DNA from: an uncultured Ruminiclostridium sp.
GTDB lineage: Bacteria; Bacillota; Clostridia; Oscillospirales; Ruminococcaceae
Assembly (NCBI GenBank): GCA_947627695.1
Contig: CANQXF010000008.1
Location: 1 to 64,000 of the forward strand
Direction: 5' to 3'
DNA length: 64,000 nucleotides
Positions 2,888-27,495 of this stretch are shown here, in pieces. The notes beneath the pieces are model-generated. The model saw only the letters and a program-made list of their open reading frames with translations. It ran no database searches and had not been told where the DNA came from. Within the stretch, counting starts at the first letter, position 1. Every line of letters begins with the position of its first letter. The position numbers and the translations under genes were made by a program.

Positions 2888-3772
2888 TCAGTCAAGATGC
2901 TCCGCATCGGTGATTTGCGCTTCACATCTTGAATGGAACTGGTCGGAATAGCCTATCTTCGGGTCTTTAAGGGTCAGCCTTACTTTTGCGTACTGCCCGT
3001 CGCTGAAATAATCCTGTATACCCACGTCATTCACATTTCCTACACGGTAAAAGTCGGAATCCATAGCATACGCCTTTTCGCCCTGAATGTCGCATACATA
3101 AGTCACATGGGAATTAAAAGGCAAAGGAAGATTTTCACAGCTTGTAGGGTCGGGGTAGAAATCCATATCTCCCTGCGCCAAGGCGTATTCATCCTCAAAG
3201 GCGCAGTACAGGATACCGTCTACCGTCATACTGCCCTCCAGCTCCACTACGCACTCAAACAGAGAAGGATCATCTTCCGTCTCAGGTTCGGGATATATCA
3301 GCTTATACCACGCGTCCTTTACGGTGAAAGGTCCCACCTGATCGCCCTGCTTCACCTTGAAATATTTATAGTCAAGCTCGGGGTTTATCATATCCTCGTC
3401 AAACTCGTAATTTTCAAAGTCGTACAGCTCAGGAGAAGTGTCGGTGTCATAATAATACGGCAGGGCGTATCTCATAAAAGCAAAATCATACTGTATAAAA
3501 AGTCCGTCTTCGGTCTTTGTGCCGTCGGCGTAATATCCCGCTGAGCCGTCGGGAAAGGTGAAATTGGCTTCCTCCTGCGGGGCGTCGGTCTCTTCGGGAG
3601 TCGTTTCCTCATCGGCTGTGGTGTCATTGGAGGCTTCCTCGGTGGGAGAAGTCTGTGAGCTTTCCTCCACTGAGGACTGCGGTGTGGTGGACTGCTCCTC
3701 CGCGCCGCCGTTATTGCAGGCGGTGAGGGTCATGGCAAGGGCAAGGAATATTGCAAAAATCGATTTTTTCAT
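2888..3772 (-). CDS. Putative secreted lipoprotein of unknown function
   Basis: A 294-residue protein. The signal peptide MKKSIFAIFLALAMTLTAC ends in a lipobox (Cys19). A Ser/Thr/Glu-rich linker covers residues about 24-70 and looks like a flexible surface stalk. The remaining 220 residues form an acidic, Tyr-rich domain I cannot assign. The ribosome binding site AAAAGGAG is 7 nt upstream. The leader is unusual: it contains the wreck of a second copy of this signal peptide (3840-3914) and, further up, a six-repeat operator with TATAAT (3956-4042). The same operator precedes the secreted protein at 24670-25059, so the two are probably co-regulated. Confidence 0.85.
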   Translation of the reverse strand: MKKSIFAIFLALAMTLTACNNGGAEEQSTTPQSSVEESSQTSPTEEASNDTTADEETTPEETDAPQEEANFTFPDGSAGYYADGTKTEDGLFIQYDFAFMRYALPYYYDTDTSPELYDFENYEFDEDMINPELDYKYFKVKQGDQVGPFTVKDAWYKLIYPEPETEDDPSLFECVVELEGSMTVDGILYCAFEDEYALAQGDMDFYPDPTSCENLPLPFNSHVTYVCDIQGEKAYAMDSDFYRVGNVNDVGIQDYFSDGQYAKVRLTLKDPKIGYSDQFHSRCEAQITDAEHLD

Positions 3773-3955: not shown

Positions 3956-4042
3956 ATTATATCATTGAAACAGCAAAATTCAATTACAAAAGGGTTACAA
4001 TTCGATTACAATTCAGTTACAAATTATTACGATTCGGTAACA
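3956..4042 (-). promoter_or_regulatory. Six-repeat operator plus -10 (PhoB/PhoP-like), site 1
   Basis: On the plus strand the pentamer TTACA or a near match starts at 3984, 3995, 4006, 4017, 4027 (TTACG) and 4038 (TAACA): spacing 11, 11, 11, 10, 11. On the minus strand the proximal repeat ends 22 nt before TATAAT (3961-3956). The hexamer at the -35 position is a poor ATTGAA, which suggests dependence on an activator. Direct repeats with an 11-bp period upstream of a -10 are typical of PhoB/PhoP-type (OmpR-family) response regulators; that assignment is inference. The promoter reads toward the signal-peptide remnant and the lipoprotein gene. Confidence 0.65.
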
Positions 4043-24669: not shown

Positions 24670-25059
24670 TTACAGCATTTTGTAAACTTCGCCGTCTATA
24701 ACAACTGTTTTCGAGGCGGGGTCGTAGCTGAGCTTTTCGTTTTGCAGCTTTAAGAAGCAGTAATCCTTGTAGGTTATCCTGCCGCTGTCCTCGTCAGTCT
24801 CAGGCATATCCTTCCACACGTTCAGCACATATTCCGCCGCCGTTCCGTCGGCAAGGATAAGCTCGTCGTCGGTGAGGACTATCTTTTCTGCGGCCGCGTC
24901 GCCGTCCTTGTAATATTCTCCCTCGTATACCTGAGAAACAGCTTCATCTGCGTCGGCAGGCTGTTCCTCGTGGGCGGAAACCGCAAAGAGAGTCGTTCCT
25001 CCGGCAAACAGCATAATGCCGAAGGTCATAAGGAGGATACCTGCAACAATTCTTTTCAT
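24670..25059 (-). CDS. Small secreted or membrane-anchored acidic protein, unknown
   Basis: 129 residues. The N-terminal helix RIVAGILLMTFGIMLFAGGTTLFAVSA could be a signal peptide cut after VSA or a TM anchor. The rest is very acidic and has a small beta-rich look (EKIVLTDDELILADGTAAEYVLNVW, KLSYDPASKTVVIDGEVYKML). I do not recognise a family. Its promoter carries the same six-repeat operator and spacing as the lipoprotein at 2888-3772, so they likely respond to one regulator. The leader between -10 and ATG is about 75 nt and includes GAAAGGAG. Confidence 0.75.
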   Translation of the reverse strand: MKRIVAGILLMTFGIMLFAGGTTLFAVSAHEEQPADADEAVSQVYEGEYYKDGDAAAEKIVLTDDELILADGTAAEYVLNVWKDMPETDEDSGRITYKDYCFLKLQNEKLSYDPASKTVVIDGEVYKML

Positions 25060-25133: not shown

Positions 25134-25219
25134 ATTATACACCATAAAAAGCAAAATACAATTACAAAACGGTTACAATTCGGTTACAATTTGGTAACAA
25201 AAGTTACAAAACGGTAACA
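25134..25219 (-). promoter_or_regulatory. Six-repeat operator plus -10 (PhoB/PhoP-like), site 2
   Basis: On the plus strand TTACA or TAACA starts at 25162, 25173, 25184, 25195, 25204 and 25215: spacing 11, 11, 11, 9, 11. The proximal repeat lies exactly 22 nt from TATAAT (25139-25134, minus strand), the same as site 1. The -35 position is a poor ATTGTA. The bases between, TTTTGTAATTG.ATTTTGCT, are also shared between the two sites. The operator occupies the gap between the ABC permease stop and the secreted-protein gene. Confidence 0.7.
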
Positions 25220-25226
25220 AAATCCA

Positions 25227-26603
25227 TTAGCTGCTCTTTTTCGCCATTTTTATCATCTGGGTCAGCTTCAGCGGTTTGCCTGTATAAAGGATTATCACCT
25301 CGTAGACCTTGGCGGTGAGGAGCGCCGCAAGGAACACCATTGCCGCAAGGAAAACTATTGCAAGAAGCATCTGCAAGCCGTCTATCTTTCCCATAAGTAT
25401 TGCGGAGGGGAGGGCGAACGGGGAGGAAATGGGGAAGAAATAAGAGAAGGTGATAACTGCGTCCATATCTCCCTCAAAATTTACGGCGGGAGGAATGTAG
25501 GACAGCATAAATCCAGCAACTGCCAGCAGTATAAGGGGCTGGAGAGAGCTTGCAAGGTCCTCAAGCCTGCTGACGCCAGCTCCCACAAGTCCCGCAAGGA
25601 GAGCGAAGAACAAAAATCCCAGAATAACGGTGATGATTATTGCAAAAATGGCAAGGGGATCGAACAGTCCGGGGACTGCGGTGGAAATTTCTCCCATAAC
25701 GTCGGTATTTGCCGCTGTTTCGCCTGCCGCTTCTGTTATCTCGTTCATAACACCCGAATTTACCACGTTCATCACGCCGATTGGTGCGGTGAGCAAAAAC
25801 GCCGCCGTTCCCACTGCTCCGAAAATAGCCGTCTGGGTTATGCAAACAAGGAGAGTTCCCGCTATCTTGCCAACGATTATGGCAAGGGGACGGCAGGAGG
25901 TTATCAGCAGCTCGATAACTCTGGAGCTTTTTTCAGTGGCTATGGACTGGGCTATCTGCTGAGAATACAGCATAATGAACATATAGAAAATAATGGAAAC
26001 TACCATAGGCAGCAGCTGTCCCACGACCATCTGTATTTCGGATTCGCCGCCGTAGACTGTCACGTTACTGCTCACGTCAGCCATAGCAAGGGGAAGATTT
26101 TCTTCGCTGACGCCAATGCTGAGATACAATGCCTTGGTGAAATTGTCCGTCACCTCGTAGGAAAATTCCTCCGCCGCATAGCGGGAGAGAATATCCTCAT
26201 TTTCGGGGCGGTAAAAGTTCAGGGAATAGCTTTTGTCCCCGCCGCCTGTTACGGTCAGAAGCATTTCCGCTTTGTCGCCTGAGGTTATCTCGTTCAGCTT
26301 TGCTTCAAGCTGTTCTTTTGTGATATTTTCAAAAGTGGTGTTTTGGATAGGGGAAAGCTGAAAATCCAGTTCGTTCTCGGCATAAATGTAAAGCGTGTTT
26401 ACGTTCTGAGCTTCGGTCTGCTCTCCGTCATCTCCGAAAATTTCGTCGTCGTCGCCTGAAAATACGGCGGGAAGAATGTTTATAGCTGCGCAGACCAGCG
26501 CGATAAGCACGCAGATAACGATAGTCCCTGTTTTGAAGGCTTTTGATTTCAGCGTCTGAAGATAGGTGAAGGATAAGATCTGTTTCCAGCCTTTAATTCT
26601 CAT
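25227..26603 (-). CDS. ABC-2 type exporter permease (NatB-like)
   Basis: 458 residues from the ATG at 26603 (AAGGTGGG upstream); a GTG three codons earlier is also in frame. One TM helix near residues 17-40, a long extracytoplasmic loop (about 50-175), then five or six TM helices, the NatB layout. It partners with the ATPase encoded just upstream, whose stop overlaps this start. NatAB exports Na+ or is induced by envelope stress in Bacillus; the substrate here is not established. The pair is transcribed from a promoter with an internal palindrome. Confidence 0.9.
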   Translation of the reverse strand: MRIKGWKQILSFTYLQTLKSKAFKTGTIVICVLIALVCAAINILPAVFSGDDDEIFGDDGEQTEAQNVNTLYIYAENELDFQLSPIQNTTFENITKEQLEAKLNEITSGDKAEMLLTVTGGGDKSYSLNFYRPENEDILSRYAAEEFSYEVTDNFTKALYLSIGVSEENLPLAMADVSSNVTVYGGESEIQMVVGQLLPMVVSIIFYMFIMLYSQQIAQSIATEKSSRVIELLITSCRPLAIIVGKIAGTLLVCITQTAIFGAVGTAAFLLTAPIGVMNVVNSGVMNEITEAAGETAANTDVMGEISTAVPGLFDPLAIFAIIITVILGFLFFALLAGLVGAGVSRLEDLASSLQPLILLAVAGFMLSYIPPAVNFEGDMDAVITFSYFFPISSPFALPSAILMGKIDGLQMLLAIVFLAAMVFLAALLTAKVYEVIILYTGKPLKLTQMIKMAKKSS

Positions 26604-27495
26604 TGCTTTCACCCACCTTTTCTATAAATAACTCGTTGAGAGTAGGCTCTCTAAGCTCAAATTTTATGGGAGAAATTCCCTTGGCAAGCATTTTTTGCAG
26701 GAATATTTTCGGCTGTTCCTCGTTTTCAACGTGGAAGCATACCCCATTTGGGGTATTTTCCTTAAGCTGTAATTTACATTCCGCCGCCAGGTCCATAAAG
26801 TCCGCCTCCGCCTTGACAAGGAGGTTTTCCCTGCCCCGTTGGCGCTTTATGGCGTTGAGGTTGCCGCTAAGTACCGTTTTTCCCCTGTTCATTATAACAA
26901 GGTCGTCGCAAAATTCCTCGATAATGTTCATCTGGTGGCTGGACATTATGATGAACTTTTCCTTTGCCGTTTCCTCACGGATAACAGATTTGAACAGGTC
27001 GGCGTTTACAGGGTCAAGTCCCGACAAGGGCTCGTCCAATACCAGCAGCTTCGGGTCGCCTATCAGCGCCGCCGCAAGCTGGACTTTCTGCTGATTGCCT
27101 TTTGAAAGCTGCTCGGCGTTTTTAAGACGGTATTCGTCAATTCCCAGCCTGCCGAACCAGTAATCTATCTGCGCCTTTGCCTCGGGCTTTTTTATCCCTT
27201 TCAGCGAGGCGAAAAAATACATCTGGTCAAGAATGTTGTATTTCGGATACAAGCCCCTGTCCTCCGCAAGGTAGCCTACGTTTTCCTGCGCGGGCTTCAT
27301 CGGCTCTCCGTTCCACAGTACCTCTCCCGTGTCCTTGGACAACATTCCCAGTATCATTCGTATGGAGGTGGTCTTGCCCGCGCCGTTGGTGCCAAGCAGG
27401 GCGAACATTCCCGGCTTTGCTATCTCAAAGCTGAGATCCTCAACGGCGGTGTATTCGCCGAATTTTTTTGATATGTGCTTTACTTCAAGGGACAT
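26593..27495 (-). CDS. ABC exporter ATP-binding protein (NatA-like)
   Basis: 300 residues. Walker A GTNGAGKTTS (about 36-45), Q-loop within LAEDRGLYP, signature LSKGNQQKVQ, Walker B LLVLDEPLSGLDP and H-loop MSSHQM. The C-terminal 80 residues are the DUF4162-type tail seen in NatA-like ATPases. It energises the permease encoded by the overlapping downstream gene. First gene of a two-gene operon. Confidence 0.94.
   Translation of the reverse strand: MSLEVKHISKKFGEYTAVEDLSFEIAKPGMFALLGTNGAGKTTSIRMILGMLSKDTGEVLWNGEPMKPAQENVGYLAEDRGLYPKYNILDQMYFFASLKGIKKPEAKAQIDYWFGRLGIDEYRLKNAEQLSKGNQQKVQLAAALIGDPKLLVLDEPLSGLDPVNADLFKSVIREETAKEKFIIMSSHQMNIIEEFCDDLVIMNRGKTVLSGNLNAIKRQRGRENLLVKAEADFMDLAAECKLQLKENTPNGVCFHVENEEQPKIFLQKMLAKGISPIKFELREPTLNELFIEKVGESNEN

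Follow-up and report, generated by a model that had tools for sequence, protein, structure and literature searches.

Rows of TGTWAY hexamers at envelope-gene promoters of an uncultured Ruminiclostridium as probable multi-box sites for a WalR-like regulator

Two promoters in a 64,000-nucleotide stretch of DNA from an uncultured Ruminiclostridium sp. (the window) are preceded by rows of six direct hexamer repeats that run into the -35 region. We interpret these arrays, with a probability of roughly 0.7, as multi-box sites for L023, a WalR-like response regulator of the same genome, which would activate envelope genes from upstream and repress from a place after the -10 element. The WalR-like regulon with long promoter-phased arrays is read here as a variant of the known WalR theme.

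Two arrays in the window

Both promoters and their genes lie on the minus strand. Arrays and promoter elements were read directly, and the genes were taken from the list of open reading frames. Both arrays are enriched over shuffled sequence, and that of site 2 is also kept in relatives.

Site 2
25161-25219, minus strand: array of six hexamers
25161-25166, minus strand: hexamer TGTAAT
25172-25177, minus strand: hexamer TGTAAC
25183-25188, minus strand: hexamer TGTAAC
25194-25199, minus strand: hexamer TGTTAC
25203-25208, minus strand: hexamer TGTAAC
25214-25219, minus strand: hexamer TGTTAC
25156-25161, minus strand: -35-like element TTGTAT, 16 nt from the -10 element
25134-25139, minus strand: -10 element TATAAT
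24670-25059, minus strand: gene for a 129-aa protein

Site 1
3983-4042, minus strand: array TGTAAT, TGTAAC, TGTAAT, TGTAAC, CGTAAT, TGTTAC, with boxes starting at 3983, 3994, 4005, 4016, 4026 and 4037
3978-3983, minus strand: -35-like element TTGAAT
3956-3961, minus strand: -10 element TATAAT, 27 nt from the start of the last box
2888-3772, minus strand: gene for a 294-aa lipoprotein-like protein (LTAC lipobox by eye; simple lipoprotein/signal rule)

Read along the minus strand from 25219 to 25134, site 2 has the form TGTTAC-N5-TGTAAC-N3-TGTTAC-N5-TGTAAC-N5-TGTAAC-N5-TGTAAT, leading into TTGTAT-N16-TATAAT. All six hexamers fit TGTWAY and follow one another in 11-bp steps with one 9-bp step, and the last box has one base in common with the -35-like element, namely its first. 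On the plus strand the repeats start at 25162, 25173, 25184, 25195, 25204 and 25215 (steps of 11, 11, 11, 9 and 11), exactly where the initial annotation had placed them, and the 22 nt that it gave between the proximal repeat and TATAAT were exact at both sites (proximal TTACAA to ATTATA, plus strand). The repeats of site 1 start on that strand at 3984, 3995, 4006, 4017, 4027 and 4038 (steps of 11, 11, 11, 10 and 11), the fifth being TTACGA. The same spacing had been claimed for the two sites; this holds exactly for the four promoter-proximal boxes but is off by one at the distal break. The bases said to be common to both, TTTTGTAATTGNATTTTGCT, are indeed exact at each. With up to three mismatches allowed, TTTTGTAATTGNATTTTGCT matched at the two sites only (shuffle mean 0.05; 0 of 100 shuffles reached two), and TTACAANNCGGTTACAA gave nine matches against a shuffle mean of 1.55, a number reached in 0 of 100 shuffles; eight of the nine fall inside the two arrays.

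The genes behind the promoters are unrelated in sequence, as had been noted, although they have a common theme of exported or envelope proteins. The 129-aa protein, with one N-terminal hydrophobic segment followed by a beta-rich domain, is probably exported. Its Pfam search matched no family, and its structural model (mean pLDDT 78; 12 of 15 matched sequences in the alignment) found no PDB entry at E ≤0.001. The 294-aa protein likewise matched no Pfam family. Upstream of site 2 lies a gene for an ABC-2 type membrane protein (25227-26612; Pfam), and the gene downstream of the 129-aa gene resembles citrate synthase by eye.

Conservation and spread of the element

Relatives of the 129-aa protein were found in 14 of 60 sampled genomes of the genus, the source genome included (15 matches, 25-100% identity). 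The match L092 was left out, as it covers only a C-terminal piece and the region before it is not the promoter. All 14 remaining promoters, again counting our own, have a four-box row in 11-bp steps. The four boxes all fit TGTWAH in nine promoters, and the other five have one or two degenerate boxes (third box TTTAAC in L093, L095 and L096; a poor fourth box in L094; poor third and fourth boxes in L091). Best four-box scores were 18-23 of 24 bases against shuffle maxima of 15-17, and at each promoter 0 of 200 shuffles reached the observed score, with a shuffle that moves base pairs in blocks of two and preserves dinucleotides only roughly. In all 14, a -10 element, which was not used for alignment, stands at a distance of 27 or 28 nt, measured from the first base of the last box. 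After the near-duplicate L084 was dropped, the TTG of the -35-like element was present in all 13 aligned promoters, and the next base varied.

The initial annotation had proposed an alignment with orthologous loci, and in it the boxes were kept better than their flanks: information per column was 1.78 bits in the boxes, 1.44 in the spacers, 0.37 upstream (57 columns) and 0.46 downstream, for rows aligned on the boxes without gaps, which favours the boxes and penalises the flanks. Box number among the relatives runs from 6 and 6 to mostly 4. As slippage can expand tandem repeats, this variation is what a chance or mutational expansion devoid of function might leave behind. We give that explanation practically no weight, since register and distance are conserved across 25-100% protein identity, the same junction stands before non-homologous genes, and shuffle and reversed-pattern controls speak against it. 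The argument for function over chance thus holds up: boxes and register are kept before the 129-aa relatives while flanks vary, and many unrelated genes have this element in front of them. Three further contigs from metagenome-assembled genomes (MAGs) also carry the array; by identity they may belong to the same species as G146, G165 and G015.

Across the source genome (2.70 Mb, 67 contigs), the paired-box pattern with at most one mismatch gave 20 matches, many of them overlapping pairs within the same arrays, against 0 for the reversed control. The core TGTWACCNTTTTGTAATTG has eight exact occurrences, and allowing up to three mismatches raises the count to 22, compared with 6 for the control. 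Each of the eight exact cores is accompanied by one to three further in-register boxes and by a -10-like hexamer, at a distance of 27-28 nt counted from where the last box begins. Behind them lie the 129-aa gene, the 294-aa lipoprotein gene and genes for an NlpC/P60 lipoprotein, a small membrane protein, an MBOAT acyltransferase, a GDSL-type lipoprotein, a BspA-like leucine-rich-repeat protein and a family-2 glycosyltransferase. A variant array precedes the gene of a cyclophilin-type lipoprotein, next to which is a murA-like gene (by eye). One core, the third on the contig of the window, lies about 3.4 kb past the window's end (L032, C8:67354-67372), before the GDSL-type lipoprotein gene.

A looser pattern of three TGTWAY boxes with up to three mismatches gave 116 matches against 102 for its reversed control and was discarded as noise; our claims are therefore built on exact or near-exact matches. 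Four places (C2:49506, C5:64714, C6:41087 and C17:17149) had no -10 element at the right distance in the sequence examined and were rejected as promoters, C3:54760, which precedes a 639-aa protein, is a doubtful array promoter, and the weak places C6:105347, C28:21920, C13:17188, C4:18361, C12:12100, C25:1386 and C5:131028 were not accepted.

Within the genus, TGTWACNNNNNTGTAATTG was present in 24 of 60 genomes (reversed control, 1 in total), with five to twelve copies in eleven genomes, hereafter array-rich. The other 36 had no exact match, a pattern too strict to show absence because G132, one genome with no exact match, has an array before its 129-aa relative. Among 119 genomes of the family, a stricter core was found in two, which both belong to this genus, against 0 in the control. 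When three boxes in a row were required to fit the general consensus exactly, the 59 other sampled genera had 0-2 copies (control 0-1) and the two members of this genus 6 and 7.

Target genes and the sign of regulation

We examined 40 of 103 listed places (8 in the source genome, 5 in G015 and 27 others), 39 after removal of one duplicate. A -10-like hexamer was present at 37 of the 39, and an ORF of at least 100 aa started 45-330 nt downstream at 33; six had no such ORF. A simple rule classed 31 of the 33 products as lipoprotein-like (14) or signal/TM-like (17), one of them (L060) passing on a weak segment, and the other two were glycosyltransferases; the same rule marked 19 of 51 ORFs taken from the window. 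These 33 ORFs are not independent, because several are orthologues. With NlpC/P60, M23, MBOAT, GDSL, cyclophilin lipoprotein and GT2 genes, the set comprises peptidoglycan hydrolases and other envelope genes, as does a WalR regulon.

The M23 peptidase gene of the source genome (domains M23, G5 and LysM) differs in layout, its box pair (L036, C14:11143-11160) lying just after the -10 element and starting 14-17 nt after the start of the -10-like hexamer. This arrangement was found at 11 of 30 orthologous loci, namely in 10 of the 11 array-rich genomes and in G160. It was absent from the M23 locus of the array-rich G153; in G150 the boxes are in the same place, though the -10 pattern was unmatched. 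Sixteen of the remaining loci had no pair and two had one elsewhere.

WalR of S. aureus is associated with activation where its sites lie upstream of -35 and with repression where they lie between or after -35 and -10 (PMC10746227), and in B. subtilis WalR is described as activating yocH, lytE and cwlO and repressing iseA (PMC7299342). By this analogy the boxes after the -10 element at the M23 gene occupy what may be a repressor-type place. Given the two placements and these precedents, the genus seems to use both signs of regulation. As both types of place are conserved, the rule that position sets sign, established in S. aureus, is open to test in another class of bacteria.

The initial annotation had called the arrays operators. 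That word suits the repressor-like placement at the M23 gene of the same genome, but boxes upstream of -35 are more likely activator sites. That the arrays are nevertheless repressor operators, blocking the promoter when bound, seems to us improbable. The one-base overlap of the last box with the -35-like element would agree with it, but TTGTAT is a poor -35, as would be expected if the promoter depends on an activator; WalR sites in this upstream position accompany activation (PMC10746227), and at the M23 gene the genus has boxes in a separate position, after the -10 element.

Candidate regulator, known systems and a candidate small RNA

The array boxes, TGTWAY-N5-TGTWAY, are direct repeats that fit the WalR/YycF consensus TGTWAH-N5-TGTWAH as given in PMC9210968 and PMC4168254. 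The source genome has ten Trans_reg_C matches; a partial copy (L026) and the 402-aa L027 were left out, and eight regulators were compared. Among these, L023 has the most WalR-like DNA-binding domain, with a WalR-type recognition helix identical to that of YycF at 13 of 17 positions, against at most 9 of 17 in the other seven. The NCBIfam YycF model NF040534, whose equivalog cut-off of 340 bits was reached by none of the eight regulators scanned, gave L023 207.7 bits, the VanR-like L018 216.1 (above L023) and L024 206.9 (about equal), and such scores do not decide between regulators. The solved domain of RegX3 is slightly closer to L023 than that of WalR. As L023 scored below the YycF cut-off, it is called WalR-like here and not filed as YycF. 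The binding protein is very probably a regulator of the OmpR type, and it is probably L023. Two regulator-kinase pairs that resemble each other lie at L026 (C43), where the regulator is shortened internally, and L024 (C12). Next to each pair is a small exported protein in which TGQQ motifs recur.

The arrays could instead be bound by a different OmpR-type regulator encoded in this genome, such as the VanR-like L018 or L024, in which case the likeness to WalR sites would be convergent and the promoter logic unchanged. Whole-protein scores do not single out L023, and OmpR-type regulators generally bind repeats about one turn apart, as with the 7-bp motifs and 4-bp spacer reported for M. tuberculosis PhoP (PMC4832192). 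We nevertheless hold this to be unlikely: the recognition helices of the other seven are less like that of YycF, no array lies beside their genes among the matches listed in our pattern searches, and the envelope theme of the targets fits WalR.

The L023 operon (L037:3908-7611, contig C28) has the order lipoprotein-regulator-kinase. Its kinase has HAMP, HisKA and HATPase domains (Pfam) and no PAS domain at E 0.001, a difference from B. subtilis-type wal loci. The lipoprotein has 451 aa and a lipobox by eye; its model has a pLDDT of 83, and its best 50 Foldseek matches had high probability with query-length TM-scores of only 0.17-0.30. We take most of these matches to be beta-propellers. Relatives of the lipoprotein occur in 59 of 60 genus genomes and 55 of 61 family genomes, and the regulator follows it at 29 of 30 loci examined, none being found in L115. 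As the array core is confined to the genus but the lipoprotein is family-wide, presence of the regulator alone does not predict arrays. The operon piece examined has no exact TGTWAH-N5-TGTWAH pair, in line with the description of wal operons as not autoregulated (PMC9210968).

The walA-walR-walK operon of C. difficile, as described in PMC9210968, has the same order and likewise a kinase that has a HAMP but no PAS domain; there the kinase gene is followed by truA2, whereas the neighbours here are different. The C. difficile lipoprotein has a beta-propeller domain, and the two lipoproteins are likened here by layout and, given the low TM-scores above, only tentatively by fold. That report calls the C. 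difficile accessory lipoprotein unique; if the two prove homologous, counterparts are suggested in 54 of 60 sampled genera of the family. WalR (YycF/VicR) sites of B. subtilis, S. aureus, S. mutans and C. difficile have the same TGTWAH-N5-TGTWAH form, envelope and hydrolase targets and two placements. In the descriptions consulted they are pairs, whereas here rows of four to eight boxes with a common TTTTGTAATTG core are fused to the -35 region in a fixed way, in an exact form restricted to part of one genus and with a regulator below the YycF cut-off. The titles and abstract openings of the literature searched describe no multi-box WalR rows and no Wal-controlled RNA.

Actinobacterial MtrA has a related DNA-binding domain, but the score against its NCBIfam model was 205.2 bits, below the cut-off of 300. 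The MtrAB system is described as having a lipoprotein and a kinase without PAS (PMC9210968).

Under the WalR-like reading, L023, phosphorylated in response to some signal, would bind as dimers to neighbouring TGTWAY hexamers, which are spaced by one turn of DNA and lie on the same helical face. As the row ends at -35, the last regulator subunit could touch RNA polymerase, and this contact would activate the weak TTGNAT/TATAAT promoter. Placed just after a -10 element, as at the M23 peptidase gene, such boxes would block transcription, and the regulon as a whole would tune exported proteins and enzymes of the cell envelope. Such a regulon would make envelope control readable in a gut lineage represented here by MAGs, and promoters with two to eight boxes at the same junction would form a natural series for the dose response to one regulator.

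Pho boxes bound by PhoB/PhoP are likewise direct repeats spaced by one helical turn and located upstream of -10, with the same 11-bp spacing, and the arrays might on this ground be Pho boxes that respond to phosphate limitation through L019, the PhoB/PhoP-type regulator encoded next to phoU. The PhoB/PhoP consensus is also said to resemble that of WalR (PMC4168254). The genome's own pst promoter, however, has a different pair, TTTACA-N5-TTTACA, in the opposite orientation, with only single TGTWAH hexamers and no array; no phosphate gene is among the identified array genes, and the L019 helix matches YycF at 9 of 17 positions. We consider this reading very unlikely, and membership in the Pho regulon was set aside, the element not being found before pstS. 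The TTTACAACAATTTTACA pair upstream of pstS, before the pst-phoU-regulator-kinase genes (L134, C1:224000-236000), is likely a Pho box, presumably a pair of the PhoP type.

In four genomes, G126, G135, G148 and G152 (L063, L072, L076 and L073), about seven to eight boxes with a promoter face an ORF-less stretch, which we note, as a lead only, as a candidate small RNA:

L063:1391-1900, plus strand: candidate RNA locus
L072:1120-1629, minus strand: candidate RNA locus
L073:1120-1629, minus strand: candidate RNA locus
L076:1120-1629, minus strand: candidate RNA locus

Tentatively, and with small odds in our estimate, the arrays may be polymeric sites of up to eight boxes whose number and fixed -35 junction set a graded or threshold response, the longest array in some species driving a small RNA with a conserved anti-Shine-Dalgarno-like UUUUUUCUCCUC. 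If true, the RNA would give wall control a post-transcriptional arm. Rfam at gathering thresholds had no match in the loci of six relatives that included the candidate. BLAST with the candidate transcript matched 6 of 60 genomes, and only in G126, G148 and G152 is it driven by an array; matches in G161, G172 and G119 were short, with no array in the locus. It was not found by BLAST in the source genome; since BLAST also missed G135, which was recognised by array and 3' end only, the source genome may hold a diverged copy. The ORF-less stretch starts near GTAGGAAGAA, and its conserved 3' end comprises TATATTRTGAAAA, a TTTTTCTCCTC segment and a hairpin resembling a terminator.
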